A model generated the notes under the pieces. It ran no database searches and had not been told where the DNA came from. It worked only from the letters and a program-made list of their open reading frames with translations. A program made the translations under genes and the position numbers. Shown piece after piece: positions 7,393 to 37,448 of a stretch of 58,471 bases of DNA. The stretch is taken from contig CANMBE010000016.1 of NCBI GenBank assembly GCA_947495975.1, forward strand, positions 1 to 58,471. Reading direction: 5' to 3'. The stretch comes from Ignavibacteria bacterium. GTDB taxonomy: Bacteria > Bacteroidota > Ignavibacteria > Kapaibacteriales > Kapaibacteriaceae. Positions within the stretch are counted from its first letter, which is position 1. Each line of letters begins with the position of its first letter.

Positions 7393-7425
7393 GGTGGGGA
7401 GTTACGAAGAAACAGAGTTACGGGG

Positions 7426-8475: not shown

Positions 8476-8480
8476 ATCAG

Positions 8481-10262
8481 TTATTGCGGTTTCATCACAT
8501 GTGATTCGTAAACAACGCCAACTGGCTCCGGACTAGATGCCTTGCCAAGAACCAATCCTTGGTGTGCATCAAGAAGTCCATATGACATGCCTGAGAAGGG
8601 GCTTACATTCTTTGTAATCTCAACAAACACGTCAGAGCTTGATGTATAGGACCATTTTGCTCCTAGTGCATTTGCGATCTGCGATAGCACTTTCCATGCA
8701 GCTCTGCAGTCTCTGCGAGCTCCTTGCATCCATCTGTCATTTGGCGCACCAAACTTGTCCCACCGGCTCATCTTCAGTCCCATCGTTCGCTGATTGTCTG
8801 CCGTTACCACCGCTGCTTGGAACCGCTGAACACGGTGCAAGGTGTTGGTAAATGTACCGTCAGATTCTGCCCATGTAGCAATTGGTAACAACACGTTCGC
8901 TTGTTTTGCTGTTACGCTTTCATGCGACCCAAGAACAATAAGCATGTCTACAGATGCAGCAGCTTCGGCAAGTTCCTGTGAGTGTGCGCCGAGGTCTTCA
9001 CCTAAAACAATCATTGCCTTAATGTCGCCACGCCGAATACCAGCCACCATTGCTTCGATGTTGTGCCCGCTTGTCTTGGGCGCGATTCCAACACTATGTG
9101 CGCCAATCGCATTCGGACTTACATCATTCACCCTGAGCATGTCGTCGCCAAATGAATGGTCGTTATGCTTGATGAAGTCAACGTTTCCAGTTTCCAAGAT
9201 CTCGTGAGCGAGACGCGCCAGGGCATAATTGTCTTCATTAGATGCGTGTGCTGAGCCAATAATTGCTATTTGCGAACCCTTGAGCCCCTTGAACGAGACG
9301 GCAACAGCATCAATAGCTTCTTCCCACGTGGCGTCTGTAAGTACACCCTGCGTGCGAATCTGTGGCCCGCTTAATCGGTTTTCGTTTACGAGCACTGGAG
9401 TTGACAAACGTCCATGGTCACACATCCAGTACGTATTTACATGCATATTGGTGCGGGGCTCCACGCGCAACACCTGATTGTCCATTACGCCCACTTTGAT
9501 GTTACAACCACGCGCGCATCCTGGGCAGATGGAGTCTGTGAAAGACATTTCCCATACGCGAGCTTTGAAGCGGAAGTCGATACTCGTGAGTGCTCCAACG
9601 GGACAAATGTCAATAACATTCATCGAATAAGGACTATCAAACGTGGTCCCTGGAAACGTGCGGATAGTAACCTTGTCTCCACGCTGAACAAACGAAAGCG
9701 ATGGCTGTTTTGCAACTTCATCAGCAAAGCGAATACAACGAGAGCATTGAATACAACGCTCGCCATCGAACATCACGTTTGGTCCAAACTCAACACGTTT
9801 TTCTTTGTGTACTTTTTCTTCATCAAAACGGCTTTGTCCCGTTGAGTGAACAAAAGCATATTCCTGAAGCTTGCACTGTCCAGCTTCATCACAGATTGGA
9901 CAATCCAGCGGGTGGTTGATGAGCAAGAATTCCATTATGGCGTTCTGAGCATCAACCGTCTTTGGCCCCGAGGTGTCAACGAACATTCCATCGGACACCG
10001 GAGTGGCGCACGCGATCTGCATCTTCGGCATCCAGTTTACTGTTGGCACTCCATCGTCGGAATACATCAGCGAGCCGTCCACGTCTTTTTTATGTGAACC
10101 AACGTTTACAAGGCACATTCTACAATTGCCGGCCACTGACAGAGCAGGGTGCCAGCAAAAGTGAGGTATAGTGATGCCGTTATCGAGGGCAGCCTCGATG
10201 ATTGTTTTTCCCGGCGCCGCCTCAATAATGCGTCCATCTATGATGATCTGGGGCATGTCCAT
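8481..10262 (-). CDS. nuoG: NADH-quinone oxidoreductase subunit G, short form
   Basis: Largest peripheral-arm subunit of complex I. N-terminal 2Fe-2S ferredoxin domain with C36, C47, C50 (FCWHPALSVAGNCRMC); then the His/Cys cluster HPLDCPICDEAGQC; then CIQCSRC with a later ICPVGA; then a molybdopterin-oxidoreductase-like domain opening with CPGCARGC and a later WMCDHGR, which together fit the extra N7 cluster ligands. At 593 residues it is clearly shorter than the roughly 900-residue E. coli NuoG, lacking much of the C-terminal domain; short forms are common. Start could be ATG 10262 or ATG 10256. A TATGTTTG box lies 42 bases upstream. Confidence 0.95.
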   Translation of the reverse strand: MDMPQIIIDGRIIEAAPGKTIIEAALDNGITIPHFCWHPALSVAGNCRMCLVNVGSHKKDVDGSLMYSDDGVPTVNWMPKMQIACATPVSDGMFVDTSGPKTVDAQNAIMEFLLINHPLDCPICDEAGQCKLQEYAFVHSTGQSRFDEEKVHKEKRVEFGPNVMFDGERCIQCSRCIRFADEVAKQPSLSFVQRGDKVTIRTFPGTTFDSPYSMNVIDICPVGALTSIDFRFKARVWEMSFTDSICPGCARGCNIKVGVMDNQVLRVEPRTNMHVNTYWMCDHGRLSTPVLVNENRLSGPQIRTQGVLTDATWEEAIDAVAVSFKGLKGSQIAIIGSAHASNEDNYALARLAHEILETGNVDFIKHNDHSFGDDMLRVNDVSPNAIGAHSVGIAPKTSGHNIEAMVAGIRRGDIKAMIVLGEDLGAHSQELAEAAASVDMLIVLGSHESVTAKQANVLLPIATWAESDGTFTNTLHRVQRFQAAVVTADNQRTMGLKMSRWDKFGAPNDRWMQGARRDCRAAWKVLSQIANALGAKWSYTSSSDVFVEITKNVSPFSGMSYGLLDAHQGLVLGKASSPEPVGVVYESHVMKPQ

Positions 10263-15703: not shown

Positions 15704-17758
15704 CTAGCGTGCTTGTACAAGAATAATGAACGTTGCAAGGCGCGTTCCGCTCGTAACCGAGATTGCGTAGGCACCAGGAAGCAAACCTGATGTGTCAACG
15801 AGTGACACACCATTCAAGATATCAGCAGAATGAACGCTTTCTCCAGAGATTGTACGAATCATTACCGATGCACCCGCAACATCTTCACAGTGAATGCGTA
15901 GTGGTTCACCCGCAAGGATAGGATGAGTCCCGAGGATTCTACACCAGTCATGTTGTTGATCGCCATCATGGACGCTAACAAGTGTCCTGTTCTTTTCACA
16001 AAGCACGTCATTGTCGTTATCAACCAGAAGATCGTCTACCTCAAATCCAGTGTTCACATCAATCGATGAGGTGCGTGCATCAATCATCATTGTGGTATCG
16101 AGGACGTATCCAAGTCCAAGGAAACGCAGTCTCAGTGGAGTCACAAAAACATCCGGTACGTTGGCACTATTCTGCGTTTGAGATACTACAACGCGATATG
16201 TAAATGACGGACCATCCATCTTTCTCATAACAACATCAAAGATTGGATGTCCCGCTTTCGCGAGCCACTGGTCAAAGAAAGCTTCCCAAGAGACAGGTGG
16301 ATTCGGAATAGCCAACTTTAGAAAGTCGAGCATCTGATATGTCTGTACTGAACCATTCGCATATGTAGCCAGATACGATTGCAATGCCGGGAAGAACACA
16401 TCACCACCCACCAATTGGCGCATCATGTGATACACCCATGCTGCCTTACTATAGGTAGTGGCTTCGTTAAAAAGTGTAGCAAGTGGTATGTCGTAGATCG
16501 GTGGCTCTAATACACCGAATTTCATATAGCTATCTCGCTTAGACCACATGTGCGCCATATATCCTTGTTGTCCAGAATATGACTCTCTGTACAACGCTTC
16601 ACTCCACGTAGCGCCTCCCTCATTCAACCAGATATCTGCCCATGTTGCACAACTGACCTTATCACCTAACCATTGATGGGCAAGTTCGTGTGCATAACCA
16701 CTCTCGGCTCTGCCGTTAAGCCACTGCCTATTAATGGTAGATATCGTCTGGTGTTCCATGCCACCAAATTGGAATGGGGCAACTGCAACGTGACCATATG
16801 TGGCATATGGATAGCGGCCTAGTCGTGCTTCTAGCGCGCTGAACATACGTGGCACGTTCGTGGTAGCATTTATGACATTATATGTGTCGCCCTGTACATC
16901 AACATCAAATTGGTAATTGCTGATTGGCACAACGGAATTATCGTCTCGCGTATACGTTTGAGAATACAACGCGAACTCGGATGCATTCACAACAAAGAGA
17001 TACGTTGGCATTGGGATATCATGACGCCAGGACTGCACTGTGGCGCTGTCTCCATCAACAAGAGTATCTGTTGCAACGCCGTTTGAAACAACTGTAAAAC
17101 CTTTTGGTACACGCACATGCGCAGCAAAGAGCGCCTTATCGTGTGGCTGGTCTTTACACGGATACCAACGGCGTGCTCCTTCTGGTTCAGAAATTGTGTA
17201 GCCTATTGCGTAGGGTACGTTTTCAGCATTTGCTTCTTGCTTACTCAAAAGAAATATTGCGTTGTCATCTCTCAGAGAAGCGTAATAAATGGTGAACTCC
17301 ATTTGTTCGCCTCGTTGCAGTACCGTTGGCAAACTCATGGTCAAGAGTTGTGTGTTTTTCGTAAACGTAATACGCGCAGAACCGGTGGTAACGGAATCAA
17401 TCGCAATCGCCACGGCGTTAAACACTACTTGCGCAAGATTATCAACACGAGAACGAACAACGGCCTTTACAATTCCTGTAGACTTTCTCTCAGATCGTTG
17501 ACTTCGTGGTGTGAGAAGTGCGGAATACCAATCAAGTGAAACATCATACGAGACAACATCAATTGTTGTATCGAGCTGTCTAGAAGGAAATCCAGCCAAC
17601 ATCGTTGGCATCGGATGAATTGGCCTTATGGATTGCAAAATAAGCTCATCGTTCACAAGCCATTCAACAAACGTGTGTTTATCCTCTTGGCTCTTGGCAA
17701 CCGTGAAAATGAAACACGAGAGGATCGCTACGAGACTGATTGTACATCGAACATTCAT
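15704..17758 (-). CDS. Secreted M1-family aminopeptidase with T9SS sorting tail
   Basis: Zinc metallopeptidase that removes N-terminal residues from peptides. 684 residues from ATG 17758, which overlaps the stop of the upstream gene as TGATG; a longer frame from 17812 exists but the chosen start gives a clean signal peptide (MNVRCTISLVAILSCFIFTV, cleaved near AKSQ). Zinc site H357-E-L-A-H361 with E380 (LNEGGATW); the exopeptidase motif appears as GGMEH instead of GAMEN. The last 75 residues (LRIHCEDVAGASVMIRTISG to the end) form a beta-rich tail like a type A T9SS sorting domain, so surface or extracellular location is likely. Confidence 0.88.
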   Translation of the reverse strand: MNVRCTISLVAILSCFIFTVAKSQEDKHTFVEWLVNDELILQSIRPIHPMPTMLAGFPSRQLDTTIDVVSYDVSLDWYSALLTPRSQRSERKSTGIVKAVVRSRVDNLAQVVFNAVAIAIDSVTTGSARITFTKNTQLLTMSLPTVLQRGEQMEFTIYYASLRDDNAIFLLSKQEANAENVPYAIGYTISEPEGARRWYPCKDQPHDKALFAAHVRVPKGFTVVSNGVATDTLVDGDSATVQSWRHDIPMPTYLFVVNASEFALYSQTYTRDDNSVVPISNYQFDVDVQGDTYNVINATTNVPRMFSALEARLGRYPYATYGHVAVAPFQFGGMEHQTISTINRQWLNGRAESGYAHELAHQWLGDKVSCATWADIWLNEGGATWSEALYRESYSGQQGYMAHMWSKRDSYMKFGVLEPPIYDIPLATLFNEATTYSKAAWVYHMMRQLVGGDVFFPALQSYLATYANGSVQTYQMLDFLKLAIPNPPVSWEAFFDQWLAKAGHPIFDVVMRKMDGPSFTYRVVVSQTQNSANVPDVFVTPLRLRFLGLGYVLDTTMMIDARTSSIDVNTGFEVDDLLVDNDNDVLCEKNRTLVSVHDGDQQHDWCRILGTHPILAGEPLRIHCEDVAGASVMIRTISGESVHSADILNGVSLVDTSGLLPGAYAISVTSGTRLATFIILVQAR

Positions 17759-18642
17759 CAAGGTACCCTTCGTGTATTTGCCGAGTCTCGCACGTATCTG
17801 TCTAGCCACCAACGCATATCGGCATTCGACTCTTTGCGTCGGCCGGCAAGCACATGATCTGCACCATCATACAACACCAGCTTGTACGGTCTCTGCAGCC
17901 TTTGCAGCTCAAGAGCAAGATACAGGGAATGTTCTGGGTCAACTTTCTTATCCCCCACACCATGCATGACAAGCAACGGAGTAATTGGTGACATTCTATC
18001 TGCCCACAGCACCACACTTCGTTGCTCGGCCTCTGTTTGCTCCATACTTCCTGGAGGTAAATATTTTGCCATTGTCCTACGTATGTATGCAGAATGCTCA
18101 ATGGCATTGATACGCGTAGGAGCTCCAAACGTAACGGCTGCCAGGAATCTCTGCGTGCGTACGAGCATCATAAAGGCCAACATGCCACCACGACTGCCCC
18201 CTACCAAGCCAATGCGAGAGTGATCTACATATGGAAGTGAATCCAACAATGGAAGTAGATTCATCGCATCGTCTACGTCGCCATTTCCCCACTCTTCATG
18301 CAAACCATCGGATCCACCCGTACCTCGATAATTTGATGCAACCACCACATAGCCCCATGACGCATACAGTCCGATAAGGGGCATTGCAGATTCAGGAGTC
18401 AGTGCCCCACGAGGGCCACTGCCTCCACGATTGAAAACAATGGCTGGATACGTTGATTTTCCACCTGGCGGTAGAGCAAGGAATCCGTTGATCTTTAACT
18501 CGCCGCTCACATACGTTATGGCATGTAGTGTTACAGCTTCGTATTGAGAATACTCTTCGGCAGTCATCGCACGCTTGGCCATGGAGAGTGCGCCAGCAGG
18601 AATCAATACCTGCTCCGAGTGCAGCAGTGTTCCGTTAACCAT
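17758..18642 (-). CDS. Alpha/beta hydrolase, S9 prolyl-oligopeptidase-like catalytic domain
   Basis: 294-residue serine hydrolase resembling the C-terminal domain of S9 peptidases. The nucleophile is in GLVGGSRGGMLAF; the oxyanion region is VFNRGGSGPRG; the acid is in HGVGDKKVDPEHS; the His is in YDGADHVLAG. It lacks the N-terminal propeller of full S9 enzymes and shows no clear signal peptide in this frame, so it is either cytosolic or its start is misplaced. It sits between an exported amidohydrolase-like gene (5-base gap) and the M1 aminopeptidase (1-base overlap), which suggests peptide breakdown. An esterase role cannot be excluded. Confidence 0.85.
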   Translation of the reverse strand: MVNGTLLHSEQVLIPAGALSMAKRAMTAEEYSQYEAVTLHAITYVSGELKINGFLALPPGGKSTYPAIVFNRGGSGPRGALTPESAMPLIGLYASWGYVVVASNYRGTGGSDGLHEEWGNGDVDDAMNLLPLLDSLPYVDHSRIGLVGGSRGGMLAFMMLVRTQRFLAAVTFGAPTRINAIEHSAYIRRTMAKYLPPGSMEQTEAEQRSVVLWADRMSPITPLLVMHGVGDKKVDPEHSLYLALELQRLQRPYKLVLYDGADHVLAGRRKESNADMRWWLDRYVRDSANTRRVP

Positions 18643-20107: not shown

Positions 20108-20182
20108 CGGGGTGTAGCGTAGCCCGGTTAGCGCGTCTGCTTTGGGAGCAGAAGGTCGCAGGTTCGAATCCTGCCACCCCGA
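20108..20182 (+). tRNA. tRNA-Pro (anticodon TGG)
   Basis: Full cloverleaf of 75 bases. Acceptor CGGGGTG pairs with CACCCCG; the anticodon stem TCTGC/GCAGA holds loop TTTGGGA with anticodon TGG; T arm GCAGG-TTCGAAT-CCTGC; discriminator A at 20182. CCA is not encoded. It reads proline CCA and, by wobble, other CCN codons. Confidence 0.97.
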
Positions 20183-20493
20183 CATTGCACTATTATGGCC
20201 CCCTTCGAATCGTTTCGAAGGGGGTTTTGTGTTTCTGTCAATTGAGACTCAGCTTCTGCTGCGGTGCGTACGTCCATCTCGGATGGCAGGAACTTTTTGG
20301 CTTCGGCTGATGCTAACGCTCTAGTGTAGGCTTTTGCCTTGCGATCTGCGCGTTGCTCTTCAGAAGCTTCTAGAAAAGCACATGCAATCACTCCAATCAT
20401 CATTCTTGGTATTACGGTCTGACCCTCTGAAACTGAATCCAGAATTGACCATGCAACATCCCAATTTCTCTACAACAATGGCTATTTTCCCCA
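20183..20493. other. Spacer between tRNA-Pro and the redoxin-propeller gene
   Basis: 310 bases holding the tRNA terminator (20199-20234) and otherwise no gene I can support. A minus-strand frame from 20403 has an Ala/Glu-rich, helix-like sequence but runs on through the terminator and half the tRNA, so I do not call it. TATTTTCC at 20483-20490 ends 3 bases before the next start and may be a degenerate -7 box. Confidence 0.5.
20199..20234 (+). terminator. Rho-independent terminator after tRNA-Pro
   Basis: Perfect 11-bp stem CCCCCTTCGAA (20199-20209) / TTCGAAGGGGG (20214-20224) with loop TCGT, followed by TTTTGTGTTT. Confidence 0.9.
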
Positions 20494-23337
20494 ATGCGTA
20501 CAACCTTCACCCTAAGCGCGCTGCTCGTCGTGTGCTTTTTCGCCCAACCACTCCTGTCTGGTGAGGGCGGCCACGAAGTCCGCAATTACCCAGCTTTCTT
20601 TGCCAAGCTATCTCCCGCTCCAGCATTCATTCAGACCCCTACAGGATCGGCGATTGTTGTTCGATACCTTGGCTATGAATGCAAACACTGCGTCCGCCAG
20701 CTTATCTACCTCAACGAGCACGCGTCTGACCTTCGAAAACTTGGAATCAACGTCATTGCAATTAGCTCTGATCCAAAAGCACAATGGGACCTGCTAGCAG
20801 AGAATGTAGATCTGGCTGAAGACGTGTTTTCGTACGTGGCTGATGAAAGCGAATCTATAGCTAAAGAGCTCGGAGCAATTAGAGTAATTAGCGATACTCT
20901 ACGCAACCTCCATGCAACAATTGTTGTACAAAATGGCGTGGTTGTGTTCAGCATGTATTCAGACGAACCATATATGGACATAGACCGTGTGGTGTCATAT
21001 GCAGCCGCTGAAGAAAGAGTTCAATTTCAAACCTCGCATTTGATTGACCGGTATCTGACATCTGCGCCGGTTGTTAAGGTAATTGCTTCAGCTTCTGATG
21101 GTTTGGTTGAGCCCCTTGACCTAGACTTCAATCGGTCTACGCTCCATCCCAACGACCTATGGATTGTGATGGCCGAAAACAGAGGTCACGGTATGGCAAT
21201 TGTTCATAACGCTGGCACCCAACAACAGGCTGTTCGAATTAAAAAAGATTCTCGTGCTAGTCACTTCATGTGGCGCACAATGAGCATTGCGATGGGTTCT
21301 CATGGGGCTTTTGGCACAATGCAGAATGGCCAGCCCGGTGGGGCAGACATCAACTACATGTTCATGGGGCCAACCCTGTGGTCGAGCGATACGGCTGTGT
21401 TTGCCTCGAGATATCAGACTGACGATACAAAGCTCGCTTCCCACCTCGACATGCTCCATCAAAGCCCATGGGGCCTAGGAATTGCGCATGATAGTGCCAA
21501 TATTTTTTGGGTGCTCGATGCGCGATATAAGGACATATGCAGATACGACTTTCGCGATCCGCATGAAGTTGGAGGCACTGATCACCGCGATGGTGTTATA
21601 CGTCGATATGTAGACGTAGAGATCACACCTACGGAAAGAGGACGCCCTTCTCATGTTGCGCTCGATCGTGCTACCGGTCTGCTCTACTACATCAATCCTG
21701 GTACAGCAACAATTCACACATTGAATACGAAAAGTGGGACCATTGGAGGTCCGCTGGTTGCGCCATCTGAAAGCGAAGAAAACTATGCTGAATACTCTTA
21801 CGTAGAATCTGCCGACGTCAATAAGGTTGTGAGTACGGGGCTTCAAGAGCCCGTGGGCATTGATGTTGTTGGCGATCGACTTCTTGTTGGAGATCGCAAG
21901 GATGGTCGAATCCACGTCTATGCCATTGAAGGCGCAACGGTTCGTGAATTAGGCACCATCGCAACGGGAGCAACGGCGCTTCATGGTATCGTTGTTGGGC
22001 CTGACGGTTGCATCTGGTTTGTAGATAGAGCAACAGCAACCGTTGGCCGGCTTGATCTCTCAAGTGATAACAAATTAATACCTGCGGTTTTGGCGCGAAC
22101 AATTCGCGCACGTGATACGGTGAGCTTCCGCTACATCAACGGTTCTATTGGTAGCCGTGATGTTACTTTTCATCACCGTGTGCGCAGGCACGCAGACGGC
22201 CTAACACAAGCATGGTCTGCCCCCTTCACGGTCTCCACCGGAGCTGCATTTTCAGAAACGGTCATTGAAGTACCAATTGAAATTGCAGACAGCCTTTCAG
22301 TGTGGAGCGTAGAGGTTGCTGAAGTTCTTCAAGAAAACGTGAATGGATTGACTGCTACAACAACCGTTGTACCACATAACGTGCGCCGGGCTCTGGTACG
22401 GGACGAACGGGTTGGCACTTTTGATATTGTTGATGCTGTTGGCCAGACAACGCGCACCGGATATGTTTCTCTTACTTCTGACGTCTTCAATGTTGTTGTT
22501 GACAGTCTTGCGTATCTAAAAACAACATTGTGGAACAGCGGCAGCTTTGGCGAAATCGATGTTGTAGATGATGCGATACTTGCCTCTTTACTCAAGCGCC
22601 GCATCGAGGTGTTCCTCATTGCTGATGACCCTCTCTTGCTCCGCACTGATTTACCGAATACTTCTGCATTCTTTAGGTCATTTGGCTGCTCTCTCATGGG
22701 TATTGATCAGATGCCAAGTGATGCTGGTCAACGAGTATTTAAAGGCGTAATCGCTGATCCAGTTACCGCGGGCATGTCAAACATTGACATTCAACTGCCT
22801 CGCCTGGATCATCAACGAGGTGGCAAGTACGTTCCGAATGTAATCTTCAGATTGGCACAAGCTGGGTCAATCGCCATGATGACGCGTGAGAGCTCTACGA
22901 TCATTGGTGCCGTCAGATTTCAACACAGCAACTATCGGTCAATCATCCTTGGCGTTAATGCATCTCGCTTTATTGATGGCGATCAGCGCACAACAATTCT
23001 TGATAAGGGACTAATCTGGCTTGAGGCAGCAGCCGATCCAGACAGCGTTCCTACAAGCGTTGCTGATGAAAGAAGAATAGCCGAAAACGACCTCGCGGTA
23101 TTCGTGGGTGCGAATCCCGTAGTGTCATCTACTACGTGGCGACTCATGGGTCAGCCAGATGTTCAAGCCGTCTTGGAGCTTTATTCCGTAGCAGGCCAGC
23201 GCATGTCTACTCTCTACAATGGAGCCATCGGCAGTGGCCTCGGCATATTGGATGTTTCGAACTTGCCTGCTGGTAGTTACTTTCTGGTTGTACGAGCTAA
23301 CGAACGTGTGGCTCACAAGACAATCATCGTAAAGTAA
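20494..23337 (+). CDS. Secreted redoxin-NHL propeller protein with T9SS sorting tail
   Basis: 947 residues; no close named family recognised. Signal peptide 1-22. Residues about 35-190 form an AhpC/thioredoxin-like domain with a CxxC at C63-C66 (YECKHCVRQL) and the helix/strand pattern INVIAISSDPKAQWDLL. Residues about 210-560 hold a beta-propeller-like segment with NHL-type pieces (GIDVVGDRLLVGDRKDGRI, HGIVVGPDGCIWFVDRATAT). A middle beta-rich part follows, then a GATase1/ThuA-like stretch is possible (FLIADDPLLLRTD). The last 80 residues (LELYSVAGQRMSTLYNG to KTIIVK) match a T9SS type A sorting domain. The redoxin-plus-NHL order recalls NHLRC2-type proteins. It ends 7 bases before relA. Confidence 0.7.
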   Translation: MRTTFTLSALLVVCFFAQPLLSGEGGHEVRNYPAFFAKLSPAPAFIQTPTGSAIVVRYLGYECKHCVRQLIYLNEHASDLRKLGINVIAISSDPKAQWDLLAENVDLAEDVFSYVADESESIAKELGAIRVISDTLRNLHATIVVQNGVVVFSMYSDEPYMDIDRVVSYAAAEERVQFQTSHLIDRYLTSAPVVKVIASASDGLVEPLDLDFNRSTLHPNDLWIVMAENRGHGMAIVHNAGTQQQAVRIKKDSRASHFMWRTMSIAMGSHGAFGTMQNGQPGGADINYMFMGPTLWSSDTAVFASRYQTDDTKLASHLDMLHQSPWGLGIAHDSANIFWVLDARYKDICRYDFRDPHEVGGTDHRDGVIRRYVDVEITPTERGRPSHVALDRATGLLYYINPGTATIHTLNTKSGTIGGPLVAPSESEENYAEYSYVESADVNKVVSTGLQEPVGIDVVGDRLLVGDRKDGRIHVYAIEGATVRELGTIATGATALHGIVVGPDGCIWFVDRATATVGRLDLSSDNKLIPAVLARTIRARDTVSFRYINGSIGSRDVTFHHRVRRHADGLTQAWSAPFTVSTGAAFSETVIEVPIEIADSLSVWSVEVAEVLQENVNGLTATTTVVPHNVRRALVRDERVGTFDIVDAVGQTTRTGYVSLTSDVFNVVVDSLAYLKTTLWNSGSFGEIDVVDDAILASLLKRRIEVFLIADDPLLLRTDLPNTSAFFRSFGCSLMGIDQMPSDAGQRVFKGVIADPVTAGMSNIDIQLPRLDHQRGGKYVPNVIFRLAQAGSIAMMTRESSTIIGAVRFQHSNYRSIILGVNASRFIDGDQRTTILDKGLIWLEAAADPDSVPTSVADERRIAENDLAVFVGANPVVSSTTWRLMGQPDVQAVLELYSVAGQRMSTLYNGAIGSGLGILDVSNLPAGSYFLVVRANERVAHKTIIVK

Positions 23338-23344
23338 GGGGCTT

Positions 23345-25600
23345 GTGTCAAAGACGGCCAATAAGCAACGTAGGTCTACAACCGACGAACCAGAACACGT
23401 GTTTGGCTTGGACGTTGAAGGGGATCTCGCCTTTCTTATTACGGAAGGCAAGAAACACCTCCAGCGATTCAATGTTGATCTCGTTTCACGTGCGTTTCGC
23501 TTTTGTGTTGAAGCACATAAGAAAGATGTGCGTGTTTCTGGTGAGCCCTACTATACACATCCAGCTAATGTTGCGCTTATCGTTATGCGCGAGATTCCGC
23601 TTGATGATGTTAGTGTAGTTGCTGCGCTCCTTCATGACGTAGTAGAAGACACCACGTTTTCGCTCAAAGATCTTAAGGCAGAATTCGGTACAGAGGTTGC
23701 CGACATTGTAGACGGCGCAACAAAAATCTCTGATGTTTTTGAGAGTAGAGAGATAACACAGGCAGAGAATTACCGCAAGCTGTTGCTCTCTCTTGTTAAT
23801 GATGTGCGTGTGATACTGGTGAAGTTTGCAGACCGACTTCACAACATGCGAACGATAGAATCACTCTCTCGTGAACGTCAAGAGCGCATGGCGCGAGAGA
23901 CCATGGAAATATATGCGCCCTTTGCGCACCGCTTTGGGCTTGGAAACATCAAGTGGGAGCTAGAAGATCTATCGTTCAAGGTGTTGCACCGTGATGCGTA
24001 TGACGATATCAAGCATCAGCTCAACACCTCTCGTGAAGAACGCGAGGAATTTATTGAGCGCTTCAGCAAGCCAGTGGCAGACAAGCTAACCGAACATGGC
24101 GTGAAGTTTGAGATTAATGGGCGACCAAAACACTTATACTCCATTTATAAAAAAATGGCAACGCAGGGCAAGTCACTTGATGAACTCTATGATCTGTTTG
24201 CTGTGCGGATCATACTAGAAACTGAAGAAAACAACGATTGTTTCTTGGCATATGGAATTGCCAGCGAAATTTATCGTCCCGTTCCGGAACGATTTAAGAA
24301 CTATATCAGCGTACCGAAAAAGAACGGTTATCAGTCGCTTCATACAACTGTGATCAGCAGTGATGGCAAGCGCGTAGAGGTTCAGATTCGCACACGTGCT
24401 ATGCATGAATTTGCAGAGCGTGGTGTTGCAGCTCACTTTCGCTATAAAGCTGCGTCGGGTGGGACTGCCTCATGGGTAGACTCAACAGATCTTGAAGAGT
24501 GGGCTAATTGGGTGCGCGATGTTTTTGAAAATGACGACGAAGAAGCAGCTAAGGATCTCTTAGAGAGTTTCAAACTCAATCTGTATCAGGACGAGATCTA
24601 CGTCTTTACACCAAAAGGTGATTTGCGAATTCTTCCTAAGGGGGCTACCCCAATCGACTTTGCATTTGACATTCACTCGCAGGTAGGTGCGATGTGTATT
24701 GGCGCAAAAGTGAATGGTCGTATCGTTCCACTTGATCACATGCTTAAGACCGGAGATCAGGTTGTCATACTTACATCAAAGAATCAAACGCCGCACCGCG
24801 ATTGGGAACGAATCGCGATAACGCACAAGGCAAAGACGCACATACGTAGGATCCTAAATGAGGAGCGTAGAGCACGCGTTGTTGAGGGCAAGGATTTATG
24901 GGAGAAGCGAGCGAGAAAACTCAAACTTCACATAAACGAAGATGAACTAGAAAAGCTCTTGCTTCACATGAAGTATGATAGTAGGTCTGAGTTTTATGCT
25001 GCCCTTGGATCCGGAACACTTTCACCAGAAGCAGCGGGCGAGATGATTTCTCAACTTCTTCAACCGGCAGCTACACCGGTTAAAGAAGCCCCCTCCAATG
25101 TGACTTTTGACCAGTTCAGTGATACTGCCCGTGATACCGCCAGTGGTGTGTACATCGTTGGACAAAACATGTCTAGCGCTAAGATTCTATTTTCTTATGC
25201 CCGCTGTTGCAATCCTGTTCCGGGAGATGATGTTGTTGGAATTGTGACTATTGGAAGTGGCATCAAGGTTCACCGCTCAACATGCCACAACGTCATTGGC
25301 TTACACGACAAGCTTAAGCCCCGCCTCGTGGAATTGTCGTGGTCACAGTCGCAGCGTGGAGAATTCCTTGCCGCAGTAAAAATCACCGGTGAAGACCGGC
25401 CAGGGATGCTAAACGACATCACAAGTGCTGTGATCTCCATCCAGAAGACGAATATCCGTGGCGTCAACATCGACGCCTATGACTCAATTTTTGAAGGAAT
25501 CTTAACCGTCTATGTGTTAGATCTTGCTCATTTGCGCAGAATCTTCGAAAAGCTTCTGAAAATCAAAGGCGTAGAGACCGTTGAGCGATTTGAAGCATAG
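23345..25600 (+). CDS. RelA/SpoT bifunctional (p)ppGpp synthetase/hydrolase
   Basis: Stringent-response enzyme, 751 residues, starting at GTG 23345. N-terminal HD hydrolase domain with intact HDVVEDTTF (around residue 97), so ppGpp hydrolysis is expected. The synthetase domain includes GRPKHLYSIYKKM, LYDLFAVRIIL and PKKNGYQSLHTTV. Then a TGS domain (DEIYVFTPKGDLRILPKGAT), a helical region, a zinc-finger-like segment (YARCCNPVPGDDVVG, HRSTCHN) and a C-terminal ACT domain (GEDRPGMLNDITSAV). The full Rel/SpoT layout with intact HD suggests a single Rel-type enzyme. The upstream secreted redoxin-propeller gene is 7 bases away and nuoJ follows in 33 bases. Confidence 0.95.
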   Translation: MSKTANKQRRSTTDEPEHVFGLDVEGDLAFLITEGKKHLQRFNVDLVSRAFRFCVEAHKKDVRVSGEPYYTHPANVALIVMREIPLDDVSVVAALLHDVVEDTTFSLKDLKAEFGTEVADIVDGATKISDVFESREITQAENYRKLLLSLVNDVRVILVKFADRLHNMRTIESLSRERQERMARETMEIYAPFAHRFGLGNIKWELEDLSFKVLHRDAYDDIKHQLNTSREEREEFIERFSKPVADKLTEHGVKFEINGRPKHLYSIYKKMATQGKSLDELYDLFAVRIILETEENNDCFLAYGIASEIYRPVPERFKNYISVPKKNGYQSLHTTVISSDGKRVEVQIRTRAMHEFAERGVAAHFRYKAASGGTASWVDSTDLEEWANWVRDVFENDDEEAAKDLLESFKLNLYQDEIYVFTPKGDLRILPKGATPIDFAFDIHSQVGAMCIGAKVNGRIVPLDHMLKTGDQVVILTSKNQTPHRDWERIAITHKAKTHIRRILNEERRARVVEGKDLWEKRARKLKLHINEDELEKLLLHMKYDSRSEFYAALGSGTLSPEAAGEMISQLLQPAATPVKEAPSNVTFDQFSDTARDTASGVYIVGQNMSSAKILFSYARCCNPVPGDDVVGIVTIGSGIKVHRSTCHNVIGLHDKLKPRLVELSWSQSQRGEFLAAVKITGEDRPGMLNDITSAVISIQKTNIRGVNIDAYDSIFEGILTVYVLDLAHLRRIFEKLLKIKGVETVERFEA

Positions 25601-25622: not shown

Positions 25623-25630
25623 TATATTTG
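25623..25630 (+). promoter_or_regulatory. Putative -7 box TATATTTG right before nuoJ
   Basis: Exact TAnnTTTG match preceded by CG. Only AGG separates it from ATG 25634, so transcription would start at or very near the start codon, giving a leaderless message. No -33 at 19 bases; a TTTG lies 30 bases upstream, a spacing also seen before guaB. Confidence 0.4.
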
Positions 25631-25633
25631 AGG

Positions 25634-26149
25634 ATGAGTTTACAGGTAATCATGTTCACGGTTTTCGCGATAGGCGCTGTTGCGTCTGCGGTCTTTACGA
25701 TCACGCGGAAAAATCCAGTCGCCTCAGCAATGTCGCTTGTAGGCCATTTCTTCATGCTCACTGGTTTGTACCTAACGCTACAGGCGCAATTTGTGGCGGC
25801 TGTGCAGGTGTTGGTGTATGCTGGTGCGATCATGGTTCTGGTGATATTCGTCATCATGCTACTGAATGTAGGCACGGAACAGCAGCACCCGCAGAGCGGT
25901 GGATTACGGACGACTTTGGGCGTAATGATGGCTGGCTTACTAGCAGTATTGATGGGCACTGCAATTCTAGCGCGCCCAACTGGACGCGTAGATTTGCCTC
26001 CTGAGTCGCTTACAATTGGTACCACTGAGGCAATTGGGCAATCGCTGTTTACTACCTATTTATTCCCTTTTGAGGCAGTGTCCCTTCTTCTTTTGGCAGC
26101 ATTGATTGGTTCAGTGATCCTTGCCAAACGTCACGTACAAGAAGGATAA
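25634..26149 (+). CDS. nuoJ: NADH-quinone oxidoreductase subunit J
   Basis: Membrane subunit of complex I near the hinge between arms, 171 residues with five membrane helices. Typical features are [21 protein letters not shown], then the helix-3 region [20 protein letters not shown], whose pi-bulge glycine and tyrosine are conserved. I prefer ATG 25634 over TTG 25628. The gene lies 5 bases before nuoK. Confidence 0.94.
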
Positions 26150-26154
26150 AAATC

Positions 26155-26469
26155 ATGCTACCAACTTCGATCCCACTCGACTACTATCTCATTCTCTCGG
26201 CGTGCCTTTTTGTCATTGGTGTAGTAGGCGTTATTACTCGGCGTAACGCAATCATCATTTTCATGTCGATTGAGTTAATGCTCAATGCAGTAAATCTATC
26301 AATGGTGGCGTTTTCTGCTTTTTCTGGCGATATCGCTGGTCAGATGTTCGTCTTCTTCATTATGGCAGTAGCTGCAGCCGAAGCGGCGGTAGGACTGGCC
26401 ATCGTTCTGGCTTTGTTCCGGAACAAACAAACTATCTATGTTGATGAGATCAACATCATGAAATGGTGA
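26155..26469 (+). CDS. nuoK: NADH-quinone oxidoreductase subunit K
   Basis: Small three-helix membrane subunit (MrpC-like) of complex I, 104 residues. Helix 2 carries the conserved Glu in [18 protein letters not shown] and helix 3 the second Glu in [20 protein letters not shown], both used in proton transfer. It follows nuoJ closely and its stop overlaps an in-frame ATG of the next gene. Confidence 0.96.
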
Positions 26470-26474
26470 CTACA

Positions 26475-26969
26475 ATGAAAACCTTCGCGCTAGCTTTTGC
26501 TATCGTCCTCGCATTTGCAGGATGCACAACTACTGAGGCTCCTGATGTGTCAGCAGAGCTGCTTACTATGGATGAACTCACCAAGTCGCCAGGGTATACA
26601 TGGTTTGTTGCCGAAATGGATACCTATACCCCCAACGCAAACGTGGTGTCAGAGATTTCTACAACCATGACGTCCGCACCTGGACGTAAGGTGTGTGTGT
26701 TTGTAAAGCCCACATGTTCTTGTCGTGGCACGCAAAGGCTTTTCCCACAAGTAATGAAGACCTTAATGGCCGCGAACATTGAAATGAGCCGAGTTGAAGT
26801 TTGGTCAATGCGAGGTGCAACAGACAAACATCCGTATCAGCCTACAATTTTGATCACTGACCTTCCTGCAATCTTTGTACTAGAGGATGGCGCTGTGCGC
26901 TCTATTGTGAGCGACCAAGACTACACAGACACAAACGCTGATTCACTTATTGCGCGCGCTGTTCGCTAA
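26475..26969 (+). CDS. Putative lipoprotein with redoxin-like fold and CxC motif
   Basis: 164 residues from ATG 26475, giving a lipoprotein signal MKTFALAFAIVLAFAG with lipid-anchor Cys C17 (AFAGC). The mature part reads like a thioredoxin-fold domain: strand KVCVFVKPT (C74), then CSC (C81, C83) at the start of a helix in CRGTQRLFPQVMK, a second strand MSRVEVWSM and a cis-Pro-like DLPAIFVLEDG. The Cys pair is C-x-C, not C-x-x-C. Known function: none that I recognise. It is the third gene after nuoJ-nuoK, suggesting a role tied to the respiratory chain, but that is only context. A strong terminator follows. Confidence 0.65.
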   Translation: MKTFALAFAIVLAFAGCTTTEAPDVSAELLTMDELTKSPGYTWFVAEMDTYTPNANVVSEISTTMTSAPGRKVCVFVKPTCSCRGTQRLFPQVMKTLMAANIEMSRVEVWSMRGATDKHPYQPTILITDLPAIFVLEDGAVRSIVSDQDYTDTNADSLIARAVR

Positions 26970-28765: not shown

Positions 28766-30766
28766 ATGAAGCATGCTCTTCTCTTTGCGATGTTCGCCGT
28801 TTCTGCGGTGATATGTCTTGCGCAAATTCCAACAGTACAGCCCAACACAACCCGGAATCAGGTATCGGCTGCTTTCAGCCCATCTGATCTGATGGCTCAG
28901 CCAACTCAGAAGGCAGAAGAGCATAGTCAAGGGGTAGTCTTTAACCGCGTTACTACGCTTGAGTTGCGCAGCAATTACCACTATTGGCCGTTTGGTGTAT
29001 GGTCAAACGCCATGTTTCAATACGAAGCAAAGTCGAACACTCTAAACATTGCTCGCAATAGAGCATTGGTTGATGGTGCTGGCGCTATCACTGGAACCGA
29101 AGTTGGAGTGTTGCGCTCAGCAAACAACGGTACATCGTGGACGTTTGACATTCTGACATCCACTCCTGATATATTCGTGTACCCCACTCTTGCGTGTATT
29201 AATCCTGACGAAGGCACTGACGCTTCAAAGCTTCCTGTCATGGTTTATGGCGCGAGCTTTGTTCGCAGCAACGGGCTTGCCTTCGGTGGCTTTACAATGT
29301 GGAACCGCACATCGGCATCTTCGTACCAAGTTTCTCTGAGCGACTATCCAGCTCCTGGTAACGGATATGCAGTAAACGAAGGAGCATTGTACGCTGATAA
29401 TTCGAGCGGATCAGTCATTTGTGCTGGCACACTCGGCACAAGTGGTTCTGCTGTATACGGTGCATATGGTATGTGGAACTTCAACCTTATTGTTGATGAC
29501 TTTGGTCAAACACCTACCATTCCTGCTGCCTGGGGATTAGACAAGTTTCGCCCAAACGCCTCTAATGGCGGCTCTTACAATGCTCCCGTACTTATTGACG
29601 GCGACGCAACTGGCACACTGTACGCTGCATTCAATAATTTTTCGTCATCGAATCTTGATGTACGCTCGGTTCAAGTTTCCAAGTCGACAGACGCAGGGGT
29701 TACGTGGGGTACGCTCAATGAAATGCCTTCTGATCTCCTCGATCAATTTGCGCTTGCTCATGGCGGCGACATTGGCTTCCAATACGGTCAATCACCATAT
29801 AGTGGCGGAGAATTCATTGCTGTAGGTGCAGAAGAATATTCATTCTTCTACCCGCTTGCAACTGGCATTAAAAGCGTTACCACTCCGGGCAGCATCGACT
29901 CAGTTGTAGCTATGCATATTGTTGAAGCATCGTATAAGAATGGCAGCTGGTCTCTTGCTGCAGTTGCTGAACTCCAAACGCTTAACCTGGATATGTGCTC
30001 AATTGAAGATTCGATTTCTACAGCGATTGGCGCTCCAGCAATATCTGTTACGGGCAGCGGACGTGGTTTTGAGATTCAAGCTGCACGCACCGTTGATGGA
30101 AGCACACTTATTGTGAAGTATGTAGACTTCAATACAGCTCGTCCTAAGAATGAATTCTCTGCAGTTCGTGTTTTTTCCGAAGAAACAAATGGATCCTACA
30201 CTGAAGGGGATCCTATCACGAGCATGTTCGATACAGACATGTATATCGTTACTCGTTTGCGCTCTAGTGCCGAATGGGGTTCACCAGCGAATGTAACAGA
30301 TGACGAAGACATGGCATTCCGCACATACATGCCAAGAACAGTCCCATCTGCCGCAGCTATTCCACTTCTTAGAGTTATCGGCACAAATGCTGGTACAATC
30401 TCGAGCCTTCTTCCAAAGGCTATTTATCAAACAGTGTATAATGGTGGCGCCTCGGTAGACTATGCCAACACAGGCGTTGTAAGTGTTGAGGATGAAAAGA
30501 CCTACGCGTTCCGCTTTGGTACAGTTGCTCCAAACCCTGTTACGTCAGCTGCAGAAGTAAGCTTCACGCTTGACCATTCAGCTACAGTTAGCATCGAAGT
30601 GTATGATATGCTTGGGTCGCAACTACGCTCCAGCCCTACACAGACTATGTCTGCGGGTATCCATGGTGTAAACGTTGATGCATCAGCATTTGCCGCTGGT
30701 ACATATAATGTTGCGCTTGTTGTGGACGGTGTTCGCATTATGAAGCCATTTGTAGTGGTTCGCTAA
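28766..30766 (+). CDS. Secreted T9SS cargo protein of unknown function
   Basis: 666 residues. Signal peptide MKHALLFAMFAVSAVICLAQ. The mature part is beta-rich and low in charge, with two Asp-box motifs (SANNGTSWTF, STDAGVTWGTL) that suggest a beta-propeller or sialidase-like fold, without any visible catalytic set. The last 85 residues (TVAPNPVTSAAEVSFTLD to KPFVVVR) are a typical T9SS type A sorting domain with the VYDMLGSQL strand. It begins after a 166-base gap; a terminator follows. Codon use resembles highly expressed genes (many GCT/GGT codons), which is an impression, not a calculation. No enzymatic role can be assigned. Confidence 0.8.
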   Translation: MKHALLFAMFAVSAVICLAQIPTVQPNTTRNQVSAAFSPSDLMAQPTQKAEEHSQGVVFNRVTTLELRSNYHYWPFGVWSNAMFQYEAKSNTLNIARNRALVDGAGAITGTEVGVLRSANNGTSWTFDILTSTPDIFVYPTLACINPDEGTDASKLPVMVYGASFVRSNGLAFGGFTMWNRTSASSYQVSLSDYPAPGNGYAVNEGALYADNSSGSVICAGTLGTSGSAVYGAYGMWNFNLIVDDFGQTPTIPAAWGLDKFRPNASNGGSYNAPVLIDGDATGTLYAAFNNFSSSNLDVRSVQVSKSTDAGVTWGTLNEMPSDLLDQFALAHGGDIGFQYGQSPYSGGEFIAVGAEEYSFFYPLATGIKSVTTPGSIDSVVAMHIVEASYKNGSWSLAAVAELQTLNLDMCSIEDSISTAIGAPAISVTGSGRGFEIQAARTVDGSTLIVKYVDFNTARPKNEFSAVRVFSEETNGSYTEGDPITSMFDTDMYIVTRLRSSAEWGSPANVTDDEDMAFRTYMPRTVPSAAAIPLLRVIGTNAGTISSLLPKAIYQTVYNGGASVDYANTGVVSVEDEKTYAFRFGTVAPNPVTSAAEVSFTLDHSATVSIEVYDMLGSQLRSSPTQTMSAGIHGVNVDASAFAAGTYNVALVVDGVRIMKPFVVVR

Positions 30767-30796
30767 GCAAAGTCACTTTACGAATTCGTATACTTG

Positions 30797-30836
30797 GGGG
30801 CGATGGACATTGCGTTCATCGCCCCTTCGTTTTTTA
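30797..30836 (+). terminator. Rho-independent terminator between two secreted-protein genes
   Basis: Stem GGGGCGATG (30797-30805) / CATCGCCCC (30817-30825), 11-base loop, then TTCGTTTTTT. It lies 11 bases before the GTG of the next gene, so it could also act as an attenuator; TATACTTG at 30789-30796 sits immediately before the stem. Confidence 0.85.
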
Positions 30837-30846
30837 GGAGTTCAGC

Positions 30847-32208
30847 GTGAAGATTCGCTACGCAGTTATTTTTGTCTTGTTTGCCGTTCTTTCGATAGCT
30901 TCACATGCTCAAGAATGGCTCCTGACCGTCCCTCAACGTGCCGTATTCTCCATTGCCTCAAACCCTCTGAATAGGTCATCTGTCATTGCTGGCAACTATT
31001 CGAGAGAGTTTCTCACGTCTGCAGATGGCGGCTCTACGTGGCAAGCACTTTCCATAGGGGAAGCCACCGGTTCATCTCAAATAAGTACGCTACTTTTTCA
31101 TCCAAGGGACACCCTCACGCTTTTTGCAGGGGGCGTTGGGTTTACGGGTCTTGAGAGGTCAACAGACGCTGGATTTTCGTGGGAGAATGTGCTGAAAGAC
31201 CCTATTGGCCTCCGATTTGAGGTTGCCAGCAATGGATGCGTAGCGTTTTACCCCGGCAGACCAGACACGATGTATGTCATTCGGAGCTCACCTGGTGTGA
31301 TCTTTCGGAGTGTAAACCGCGGTGAAAACTGGGACTCTATCGGTGTAATTCCTGGCCTTAGTGGGTCTGATCGCATGCGTGCACTTGCAATCTGCCCGGA
31401 AGTTGATAGTGCAAAGATTATGCTAGCATGTGGACGTCGTTCCATGATGTACCGATCAACAGATGGAGGAAAGACATGGGCCTCCACGGGATACGCATTT
31501 GGTGGTCAGGCAGATAACGATGGAGCGCAAATCCGCTGGAGCCCAACAGTGCCCGGCAAGGTATATGCGGTTGCCCAATTTTTAGTGGTGCAAAATACTG
31601 GCAGCGGAGGCCTGCACATTAGCACAGACTATGGTGTTACGTGGGCTGCCAAGAAATTCATGGATACATCGCTGTTTGCACTAGAGGTGTTTCCAACAAA
31701 AAATGGTGATGAAATTTTTGTTGGCGGCTCACAGCTCTCAATCACGAGTCCAGCGCTTAAAGGTGATTCTATTGTTTTCCGATCACCTGATGGTGGCACC
31801 ACATGGCAGGACCTCAGTAACATCCAATGGGTAGCAAACGAACTTGAACAGCTCGCCCCAAATGTATGGGGCTTTGCACTGGTCAATGTTGACGGTCATC
31901 CGGAGGTAATTATGGCAACCGAGGTTGGTGTATTTCGATCAACAGCGGTAACGTCCGTGCGAGAAAGCAGTCGTTCACTTCAACAAATCTCTCTGCGATC
32001 TACAGGAGCCAGCGTACTGGTTACGATGCCCGAAGGTATACATATGGGATCATATGTTATTTCCACATTGCTTGGGCAGATTATTTCGAGTGGTGCACTT
32101 AACGGAACCGGTGTTCAGCGTATTGATCTTTCTGGGTTTCCTGCAGCCCCTTACCTCATTCGTGCAAATGCTGGTGAATTTGTGGGTGCAACGATAACCA
32201 CTCGGTAA
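30847..32208 (+). CDS. Secreted Asp-box beta-propeller protein with T9SS tail (paralogue 1)
   Basis: 453 residues from GTG 30847 (MKIRYAVIFVLFAVLS signal peptide, cleaved after SHA-Q). Six Asp-box motifs of the form S-x-D-x-G-x-T-W follow at regular spacing: SADGGSTW, STDAGFSW, SVNRGENW, STDGGKTW, STDYGVTW and SPDGGTTW. Such repeats build a six- or seven-bladed propeller as in sortilin/BNR proteins; many are binding rather than catalytic. The last 80 residues (SVLVTMPEGIHMGSYV to TITTR) look like a degenerate T9SS sorting domain. The next gene is a clear paralogue, so a tandem duplication is likely. Confidence 0.82.
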   Translation: MKIRYAVIFVLFAVLSIASHAQEWLLTVPQRAVFSIASNPLNRSSVIAGNYSREFLTSADGGSTWQALSIGEATGSSQISTLLFHPRDTLTLFAGGVGFTGLERSTDAGFSWENVLKDPIGLRFEVASNGCVAFYPGRPDTMYVIRSSPGVIFRSVNRGENWDSIGVIPGLSGSDRMRALAICPEVDSAKIMLACGRRSMMYRSTDGGKTWASTGYAFGGQADNDGAQIRWSPTVPGKVYAVAQFLVVQNTGSGGLHISTDYGVTWAAKKFMDTSLFALEVFPTKNGDEIFVGGSQLSITSPALKGDSIVFRSPDGGTTWQDLSNIQWVANELEQLAPNVWGFALVNVDGHPEVIMATEVGVFRSTAVTSVRESSRSLQQISLRSTGASVLVTMPEGIHMGSYVISTLLGQIISSGALNGTGVQRIDLSGFPAAPYLIRANAGEFVGATITTR

Positions 32209-32222
32209 CAGAAAGGTGATTC

Positions 32223-33596
32223 ATGATAAAGTTGCTCTTGCTGGTGGTTGTTTGCATGTCAACGATTCCTATGATGGGGCAGTCTTGGAAACTTCTCAAT
32301 CCAGTTCTCTCGCACACAATCGTTACCAATTCCCAAAACCCACACACACTATGGGTGGGTAATTGGGCTCATCAGTTGTACAGGTCTTACGACGCAGGTA
32401 CGTCCTGGACAATCGTAGAAATTGGTAGCACCGATGTTCCAAACTTCTTGATGTCCATTGTGACGGCGCAGACTGACACAAATGTGATAGTTGTAGGTGG
32501 ATTTGGTGTTGATGGTATTCGTCGCTCAATTGATGCAGGAAGAACATGGACTCGTGTTTTAACAGATTCTGCACGGCTTGCGATGTATTTCATTTCTGAA
32601 GCAATTCTTGAGGACGTTTCTCAACCAGGACGATATTTTGGAGCGCGCGGCACTCCTCCAAGAAACAATAGTATTTGGGAGAGTATCAACAATGGCGCAA
32701 CGTGGGATAGCATATCTGTTTTACCGCCAAATTTTACCGATCGACTGTGCACTATAGCACAACGCAAAGACAGTGCAAACATTCTGTTTGTAGGCTGTAG
32801 AGGTGGAATTATTGCGAGGTCAGACGATAGAGGCCGAACATGGCGAGCTGTACCAGTACTACGTGGTATGCTCAATATCAGTGGTGATGCGGAGGTCCCA
32901 AAAATCGTATTCTCAACACGGTATCCGAGAGTCGGCTATGCCATTGTTGCAATCACATCGCCAGATAGTATCAACGACAATGGTGGCGTGCTCAAGACAG
33001 TAGATGGCGGCGCCACATGGGACCGAATTGCATTTGCCGACACGAGTCTATGGTCAGTAGACGTGCGTGATGGGGCGAATGGAGAAGACGATGTTTTTAT
33101 CGGTGGATTTAGAACAAGTAACCGCCCCACAACAATCAAGGGCGACGGTCTTGTGGCGCGTTCTACCGATGGTGGACAAACGTGGAGTCAGTACACTGAT
33201 ATTCCGTGGGGAATAAATGAGCGCGAAGACACGATACGTAATGTGTGGTCGATTCACTGTGAACCAAAACTCAAACGCGTCTATATGACGGCAGAGACCG
33301 GTACGTACATATTGAATGAGCCAACATCTGCTGTGGATAATAACGAGACTGACTCGCATCAAACACTTCGATACACTGTGGGAACGAACGAAATTGTCGT
33401 TACTGATCTTGACCCAACAGATGATCACACATCGTGGACTCTTTACACGATGAATGGTAACCTCGTACTGAGCGGCGACGTTGTCTCTCCCGACGCCCAA
33501 CGAATTTCTACAACATCATTGGCATCCGGACTATACCTCCTTACATGGGGCTCCGAGCGCAGATTCCGTACCGCGCACATACCTGTCGTTCGTTAG
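32223..33596 (+). CDS. Secreted Asp-box beta-propeller protein with T9SS tail (paralogue 2)
   Basis: 457 residues with signal peptide MIKLLLLVVVCMSTIPMMGQ. Six Asp-box motifs: SYDAGTSW, SIDAGRTW, SINNGATW, SDDRGRTW, TVDGGATW, STDGGQTW, in the same order and spacing as the previous gene, plus shared stretches around the ends. The last 60 residues (SWTLYTMNGNLVLSG to HIPVVR) form the T9SS-type tail. It starts 14 bases after the first paralogue, so both are on one transcript. Its TAG stop overlaps the TAA stop of the opposing FAH-family gene. Binding or adhesion on the cell surface is a guess. Confidence 0.82.
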   Translation: MIKLLLLVVVCMSTIPMMGQSWKLLNPVLSHTIVTNSQNPHTLWVGNWAHQLYRSYDAGTSWTIVEIGSTDVPNFLMSIVTAQTDTNVIVVGGFGVDGIRRSIDAGRTWTRVLTDSARLAMYFISEAILEDVSQPGRYFGARGTPPRNNSIWESINNGATWDSISVLPPNFTDRLCTIAQRKDSANILFVGCRGGIIARSDDRGRTWRAVPVLRGMLNISGDAEVPKIVFSTRYPRVGYAIVAITSPDSINDNGGVLKTVDGGATWDRIAFADTSLWSVDVRDGANGEDDVFIGGFRTSNRPTTIKGDGLVARSTDGGQTWSQYTDIPWGINEREDTIRNVWSIHCEPKLKRVYMTAETGTYILNEPTSAVDNNETDSHQTLRYTVGTNEIVVTDLDPTDDHTSWTLYTMNGNLVLSGDVVSPDAQRISTTSLASGLYLLTWGSERRFRTAHIPVVR

Positions 33597-37385: not shown

Positions 37386-37417
37386 AACCTGAAAATACGA
37401 CGGGTTGAGAGAATCAT

Positions 37418-37425: not shown

Positions 37426-37448
37426 TAGATCTCGATTCAGGAGTATTG

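Follow-up and report, generated by a model that had tools for sequence, protein, structure and literature searches.

The subject of this analysis is a gene at positions 20494 to 23337 of a 58,471-nucleotide stretch, called the window below, from contig CANMBE010000016.1 of the Ignavibacteria bacterium assembly GCA_947495975.1. This gene encodes a 947-residue protein that joins a redoxin domain, an NHL-type propeller, a C-terminal module and a sorting domain of the type IX secretion system (T9SS). Judged from sequence comparisons, what is new in this protein is the combination of a redoxin whose cis-proline is changed to His with a His-rich propeller for which no family model was found. We favour, tentatively and at somewhat less than an even chance, a surface-displayed metal-binding redox protein in which a CxHC...His site would face the His-rich cup of the propeller. 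Plain disulfide exchange ranks close behind. None of the titles listed by the literature searches is on this protein, which is not proof of absence.

The gene is a single open frame with exact coordinates (ATG at 20494, stop at 23337, forward strand, 947 codons), and the in-register antisense frame is full of stops. It is not a chance open reading frame, since 14 distinct full-length proteins exist in the phylum, the window protein included, and the other 13 share 31-70% identity with the window protein. The features of the gene are the following:

20494..23337, + strand: whole gene, T9SS-sorted redoxin-propeller protein of 947 amino acids (open reading frame list, homologues)
20494..20562, + strand: probable Sec signal peptide, residues ~1-23 (judged by eye; helix 4-15 in the model, with a predicted local distance difference test score, pLDDT, <50)
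20599..21021, + strand: redoxin (thioredoxin-fold) domain, residues 36-176 (Pfam, alignments, structure match with Z ~17)
20680-20691, + strand: CKHC, residues 63-66, inside the redoxin domain
20911-20913, + strand: His140, at the cis-Pro position, inside the redoxin domain
21055..22077, + strand: six-bladed NHL-type propeller, residues 188-528 (structure model, profile and conservation)
22111..23073, + strand: C-terminal module, residues 540-860, beta-rich and then alpha/beta (model, order-level matches)
23113..23334, + strand: T9SS type A sorting domain, residues 874-947, last residues KTIIVK (TIGR04183, 28.3 bits)

An earlier note, made from the sequence alone, had already described one 947-residue protein with a redoxin domain carrying CKHC (C63/C66), an NHL-type propeller and a T9SS tail; Pfam, TIGR04183 and the propeller model agree with it. 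The structure model of the full-length protein is weak (pLDDT 62.6, residues 250-410 below 50). Glycosidase and peptidase matches that ranked high for this model were ignored because of a root-mean-square deviation (rmsd) above 17 and the weakness of the model. Matches to "CIS12 contractile injection" (21 of 860 bits for the window protein) and to dynactin and catalase-peroxidase (E 0.18-0.91) were set aside.

The redoxin domain is recognized within residues 51-159 by the Pfam models AhpC-TSA (33.2 bits, cut-off 26) and Redoxin (30.5 bits, cut-off 26.6). A thioredoxin/redoxin fold is predicted, with block pLDDT values of 73-87 for residues 51-130 and of 57 for residues 131-140. The top structural neighbours are of Bcp/Prx type (Z ~17), ResA is found at Z ~15, and the motif CKHC aligns without gaps to the CEHC of the ResA entry 3c73. 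A MAFFT alignment was made with proteins of the same genome, namely Prx, PrxQ, three TlpA-like proteins, Trx and Sco. The active-site loop aligns there with TlpA and not with Prx, and CxHC falls in the same columns as in the TlpA-like proteins. The cis-Pro column is occupied by His140 in the window protein, by Arg in Prx and PrxQ, by Pro in Trx and the TlpA-like proteins, and by His in Sco.

The motif CxHC and the His of the cis-Pro column are conserved in all 17 rows of the redoxin alignment. Three of these rows (L041, L023 and L024) are stand-alone redoxins without propeller from the same order, and in a fourth stand-alone redoxin, L025, inspection by eye shows CSHC together with an identical Leu-His. 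C63, H65, C66 and H140 are also retained in three partial proteins (L009-L011). With a thioredoxin-type fold predicted and C63 and C66 invariant, neither of the outcomes named in the earlier note as refuting it occurred. A wider redoxin search matched 67 of 395 genomes of the phylum at E 1e-8. Among the 30 loci taken from it, 13 have CxHC and the His, and the remaining 17 are more distant (16 of the CPYC/CPFC type, unaligned at the cis-Pro column, and one CPMC with His); these 30 loci leave out the stronger locus-less matches G097:C5, G101:C3 and G140:C13 as well as weaker ones. This search adds no independent support, because its 13 loci repeat genes already known, ten full-length ones and those of L023-L025.

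The propeller folded alone (ten sequences) gave a predicted template modelling score (pTM) of 0.81 and a mean pLDDT of 74.7. The VIA-align comparison aligns it at Z ~25 with six-bladed NHL propellers and designed Pizza propellers, and at Z 23.6 with the zinc lyase PAL (3fvz; rmsd 2.8, 261 aligned residues). PAL is characterized by Zn-binding His in the central pore; in the propeller model, the His loops are largely at pLDDT <50. The NHL repeat scores 18.7 bits in the whole protein (cut-off 20) and 23.3 bits for the propeller alone. When the propeller was compared with Pfam and NCBIfam, only one 28-residue NHL repeat of Pfam was above the cut-off, and no NCBIfam model. The propeller profile matches NHLRC2 (6g7w, E 6.1e-7; 6gc1, E 4.1e-6), the plant protein SOQ1 and virginiamycin B lyase. 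The thioredoxin-NHL order, which the earlier note had compared to that of NHLRC2, is supported by these matches to 6g7w, 6gc1 and SOQ1. The virginiamycin B lyase model PF24684 stays below its cut-off of 50, with 16.9 bits for the whole protein and 19.2 bits in the propeller scan; the weak likeness is found in 14 of 15 family members at E <=0.1 (best 1.7e-5).

From nine diverse propeller versions, including one from a cyanobacterial plasmid, we observe that 43 of the 341 positions are invariant. H257, H317, H322, H357 and H364 are conserved in all nine, and H387 in the 14 full-length proteins and not in the cyanobacterial protein. The complete set of Cys and His that are invariant in the 14 full-length proteins is C63, H65, C66, H140, H257, H317, H322, H357, H364, H387 and H773. 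Conserved motifs of the propeller are FMGPTLW, GSHLDMLH and DHxDG. The cyanobacterial version is a distant relative (27.6% identity over 63% of the query), a 450-residue Synechocystis protein without redoxin. It is encoded at L053:5929-7281 on the plasmid NZ_CP054307.1, is annotated as hypothetical and is a stand-alone propeller with long insertions. The plasmid search recovered two records, both from Synechocystis, and the same two when the Synechocystis protein was used as query; the two strains are of tidal pool origin. In viral contigs, 40 stretches fit the propeller pattern and none was confirmed as a relative. Another propeller without redoxin is encoded in the phylum (L022:742-2595, - strand, 618 amino acids). 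Its T9SS type A sorting domain (26.4 bits, cut-off 23) is located at residues 138-205, within the N-terminal half instead of at the C-terminus.

The favoured reading is built on these two domains. The Atlas of the thioredoxin fold (PMC2757866; this and the papers below are cited from excerpts) states that the cis-Pro may prevent metal binding to CxxC. With an invariant His in place of this residue, a Cys2-His site resembling the copper site of Sco could be made up of C63, C66 and H140. Sec would take the protein across the inner membrane and the T9SS across the outer one, and it would be retained on the surface. If the arrangement is that of NHLRC2, the Cys2-His site would face the propeller cup, where the invariant His would make up another site, for a metal or a substrate. 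Together, the two sites might serve in the uptake of metal, with copper as the first candidate and iron or haem as the next, or in the extracellular oxidation of a thiol substrate, the CxHC pair carrying the electrons. The conservation of CxHC and of the His in 17 of 17 rows and in the partial proteins L009-L011, the Sco His in the same column, the five propeller His in nine of nine versions, the cup-facing Trx site of NHLRC2 and the presence of SprA and PorV argue for this reading.

Several observations weigh against it. The spacing is CxxC and not the CxxxC of Sco, so only the His column agrees, and this shared column rests on one MAFFT alignment. SCO1-SenC (PF02630) does not match the window protein at E 10, nor the 17 redoxin rows at E 0.1, and hhalign finds no relation between the redoxin alignment and a single Sco sequence in local or global mode. 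H140 adjoins a low-confidence stretch (residues 133-136, pLDDT <50). CxHC is also present in DsbA, where it tunes a plain disulfide. In the propeller model, pLDDT is below 50 at positions 65-71, 92-108, 110-113, 115-139 and 171-177 (numbering of 341), segments that contain four of the five invariant His (model 70, 130, 135 and 177), the fifth (model 170) being at an edge. Of the 14 propeller His, 5 are invariant, compared with 38 of the 327 other residues, which is a modest enrichment (Fisher p 0.021 without correction for the twelve residue types tested); that of Phe is stronger (4 of 8, p 0.011). No metal-handling gene is seen by eye among the neighbours.

The next explanation, of lower probability and on balance unlikely, is a plain surface thiol-disulfide oxidoreductase of the HBP35 or DsbA/TlpA kind, whose CxHC would exchange disulfides with surface or periplasmic proteins. 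The propeller would then be a client-binding platform, as proposed for NHLRC2, and the CxC lipoprotein encoded downstream could pass electrons to the CxHC pair. The TlpA/ResA-like spacing of the active site, gap-free to 3c73 and in the columns of the TlpA-like proteins, speaks for it, together with the precedent of HBP35, which has thioredoxin activity, and the co-directional CxC lipoprotein, whose lipobox Cys and both CxC Cys are invariant in 11 of 11 sequences. This reading leaves the invariant propeller His unexplained. In addition, the cis-Pro, which in thioredoxins probably contributes to the site of substrate binding (PMC2757866), is absent from the 17 rows, and the Trx domain of NHLRC2 is described as without insulin reductase activity in the excerpted text of PMC6107167.

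A ligand-binding or enzymatic surface propeller of the lyase or lactonase kind, in which the redoxin would have only a structural disulfide or folding role, is a good deal less likely. The redoxin-less protein of L022 and the Synechocystis protein share the conserved propeller positions, which favours it, as do the weak likeness to virginiamycin B lyase and the fold likeness to PAL. Against this, CxHC and H140 are invariant in the 14 full-length proteins though the rest of the domain varies, they are kept in stand-alone redoxins, and a structural disulfide needs no invariant His.

The motif PxxxT/SxxC around the peroxidatic Cys is characteristic of peroxiredoxins. The earlier note had called the domain peroxiredoxin-like, and a peroxide scavenger or sensor at the surface could be proposed from the AhpC-TSA and Redoxin scores, from the AhpC-TSA match in 17 of 17 rows and from the Bcp/Prx-type structural neighbours. 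That motif is absent from all 17 rows: position -3 relative to the first Cys is occupied by Gly in each of them, and none has Pro at -7. Arg, which Prx carry in the cis-Pro position (PMC2757866), is His in 17 of 17, and the active-site loop follows TlpA. Peroxiredoxin chemistry was therefore rejected and the peroxide reading is very improbable; the missing signature and Arg, together with CxHC and a His at the cis-Pro position, argue instead for a potential Cys2-His metal site.

The window protein can be compared with several known systems. The likeness to NHLRC2 and SOQ1 lies in a Trx fold followed by a six-bladed NHL propeller, as indicated by profile and Foldseek matches. Foldseek with the whole model ranks 6gc1 (NHLRC2) second, at template modelling scores of 0.10-0.18 that do not show the domain arrangement and were not used as proof. 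NHLRC2 contains the motif CC(I/V)NC (CCINC) and a cis-Pro163, and its propeller, the cup of which faces the Trx site, is reported without bound metal or catalytic residues in the same excerpts (PMC6107167). The window protein differs by CKHC, by His140 in the cis-Pro column, by the five invariant propeller His and by the T9SS tail. By sequence, the likeness is real in domain order; CC(I/V)NC and the cis-Pro, the defining motif of NHLRC2, are missing.

Sco/SenC proteins have in common with the window protein the Trx fold and two Cys plus a distant His, which the MAFFT alignment places in the cis-Pro column. The CxxxC spacing, the membrane anchor and the match to PF02630 are absent from the window protein, and membership in Sco was rejected on spacing and on the missing Pfam match; the genome encodes a separate Sco. 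SBP56 is itself a propeller, and this family is not among the matches listed for the window protein. In the methanethiol oxidase SBP56/MtoX, copper is probably held by strictly conserved His, and the gene is often beside SCO1/SenC (PMC5739008). Sco itself is described as a CXXXCXnH copper protein with a membrane anchor (PMC9145763). This oxidase is a near functional parallel to a Sco-like domain fused with a His-rich propeller. A more specific form of the metal reading would be a T9SS-displayed surface copper enzyme in a single chain, in which the permanently fused Sco-like Cys2-His domain loads or reduces a multi-His copper site in an undescribed NHL propeller; we regard this as rather improbable.

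HBP35 is a protein of 344 residues and is not known to have a propeller. It carries a thioredoxin-type CxxC in its N-terminal part and reaches the surface through the T9SS, as is probable for the window protein; it differs by binding haem outside its Cys site. In Porphyromonas gingivalis, the T9SS delivers HBP35 to the cell surface, and the protein has thioredoxin activity (PMC2907840, PMC10202324); this activity is lost without its two Cys, and haem is bound by another part of HBP35 (PMC2907840). For a thioredoxin fold, export to the surface is by itself nothing unusual, because HBP35 is a known T9SS-exported thioredoxin. The statement of the earlier note that an extracellular T9SS-sorted form is unusual is weakened by this precedent and by five CxxC proteins of the order that weakly share the C-terminal module.

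The C-terminal module has no Pfam family above cut-off and no solved relative by sequence (best E 0.18). The model shows residues 540-640 as beta-rich, as the earlier note had described the further parts, and residues 640-850 as alpha/beta, contrary to it, with helices at 662-671, 690-701, 712-719, 723-729 and 829-844. In other genomes of the order, the module has weak matches at six loci (E 2e-8 to 7e-6, 23-30% identity). The five relatives inspected all have a CxxC segment near the N-terminus, of the TSATCKPC, TSATCTPC, TNASCGPC and TGAWCPWC kinds. Omp28 (PF11551) exceeds its cut-off in L029 and L038, stays below it in L037 and is not found in L027 and L031; the Pfam T9SS tail likewise passes its cut-off in L029 and L038 and is not among the matches listed for L027, L031 and L037. 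These Omp28-type proteins resemble the window protein in their CxxC segment, module and, in two of five, T9SS tail, and differ in having another N-terminal domain and no redoxin or propeller by Pfam. On sequence grounds, T9SS export of CxxC proteins may be a recurring theme in the order.

The T9SS type A model TIGR04183 of NCBIfam reaches 28.3 bits on the window protein (cut-off 23), and the Pfam tail model is below its cut-off (19.1 of 27). Among ten relatives scanned with TIGR04183, L007, L012 and L022 (internal domain) pass, and L003, L006, L008 and L021 fall just short (20.2-22.9 bits); L004 and L005 are not listed, and L020 matches the type C model below cut-off. A search for SprA and PorV in the genome (2.18 Mb, 24 contigs) found SprA in one frame (917 bits) and the PorV family in three genes that score above cut-off (317 bits for PorV), so the T9SS is probably present. 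From the T9SS tail and the signal peptide judged by eye, the protein is probably displayed on the outer surface.

The related-locus search recovered ten loci, seven of them full length, from Kapabacterium or Ignavibacteria metagenome-assembled genomes. In the 395 genomes, 29 match at E <=1e-5: ten carry the full-length protein, the genome of the window included, L022 is the propeller without redoxin, and the others show redoxin, C-terminal-module or tail matches only. Without exact duplicates (L013-L015 are identical to L003, L004 and L006), these searches gave the 14 distinct proteins mentioned above, with one full-length copy in the genome of the window. The same-family genomes G055 and G082 gave no match among the 395, so the gene is not in all close relatives. 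Rows left out were L010 (odd end at a contig edge) from alignments A2 and A6, L009-L011 from A3, L009-L011 and L025 from A4, and L006 and the partial proteins from A5.

The neighbouring features are the following:

20108-20183: tRNA-Pro, upstream of the gene
20197-20226: terminator-like hairpin, upstream of the gene
23345..25600, + strand: gene judged by eye to be Rel/SpoT-like, 7 bases past the redoxin-propeller gene and kept as its neighbour within the family
26463..26969, + strand: thioredoxin-like CxC lipoprotein, end of a conserved co-directional run (neighbour comparison, alignment)

Downstream on the same strand, by eye, the Rel/SpoT-like gene is followed by two NADH-dehydrogenase-like genes and the 168-residue lipoprotein. 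Rel is downstream in seven of the seven first-search loci in which the contig extends beyond the gene, and in L063, L064 and L066; its position in L065 is hidden by the overlap filter. The CxC lipoprotein is found in the same seven loci (inverted in L008) and in L064, L065 and L066, and is not listed in L063. L061 and L062, from the same order, have other neighbours, with no Rel or CxC lipoprotein downstream. The lipobox Cys, the CxC and a Leu-Pro of the lipoprotein are invariant in 11 of 11 sequences; it has no Pfam match at E 0.01 and a weak likeness to glutaredoxin (E 0.033). By its position, it is a candidate redox partner; the earlier note had suggested that the window protein may use a surface redox partner or act as a sensor. 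The neighbours indicate no function.

Elsewhere in the window, complex I (nuo) genes recognized by eye are split over 25628-26469, 6892-10262 and 37197-38329, with a JK-like pair between Rel and the CxC lipoprotein. Positions 28766-33596 (+ strand) encode three consecutive exported proteins that resemble, by eye, repeat-type propellers with T9SS-like tails, and positions 15704-17812 (- strand) an exported protein that is peptidase-like by eye.

If the favoured reading is true, the protein would be an unusual surface metal or redox protein. A metal bound by the Cys2-His site would make this family a natural test of the cis-Pro as the residue that keeps metals out of thioredoxin-type CxxC. The copper enzyme, if it is one, would parallel, outside the cell, methanethiol oxidase and the separate Sco of that system, and its cis-Pro-to-His change would be a natural example of a redoxin turned into a metal site. 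The propeller group would give a name to uncharacterised proteins, including the redoxin-less ones on cyanobacterial plasmids, and the protein would illustrate a way in which bacteria represented here mainly by metagenome bins may carry out redox or metal chemistry outside the cell.

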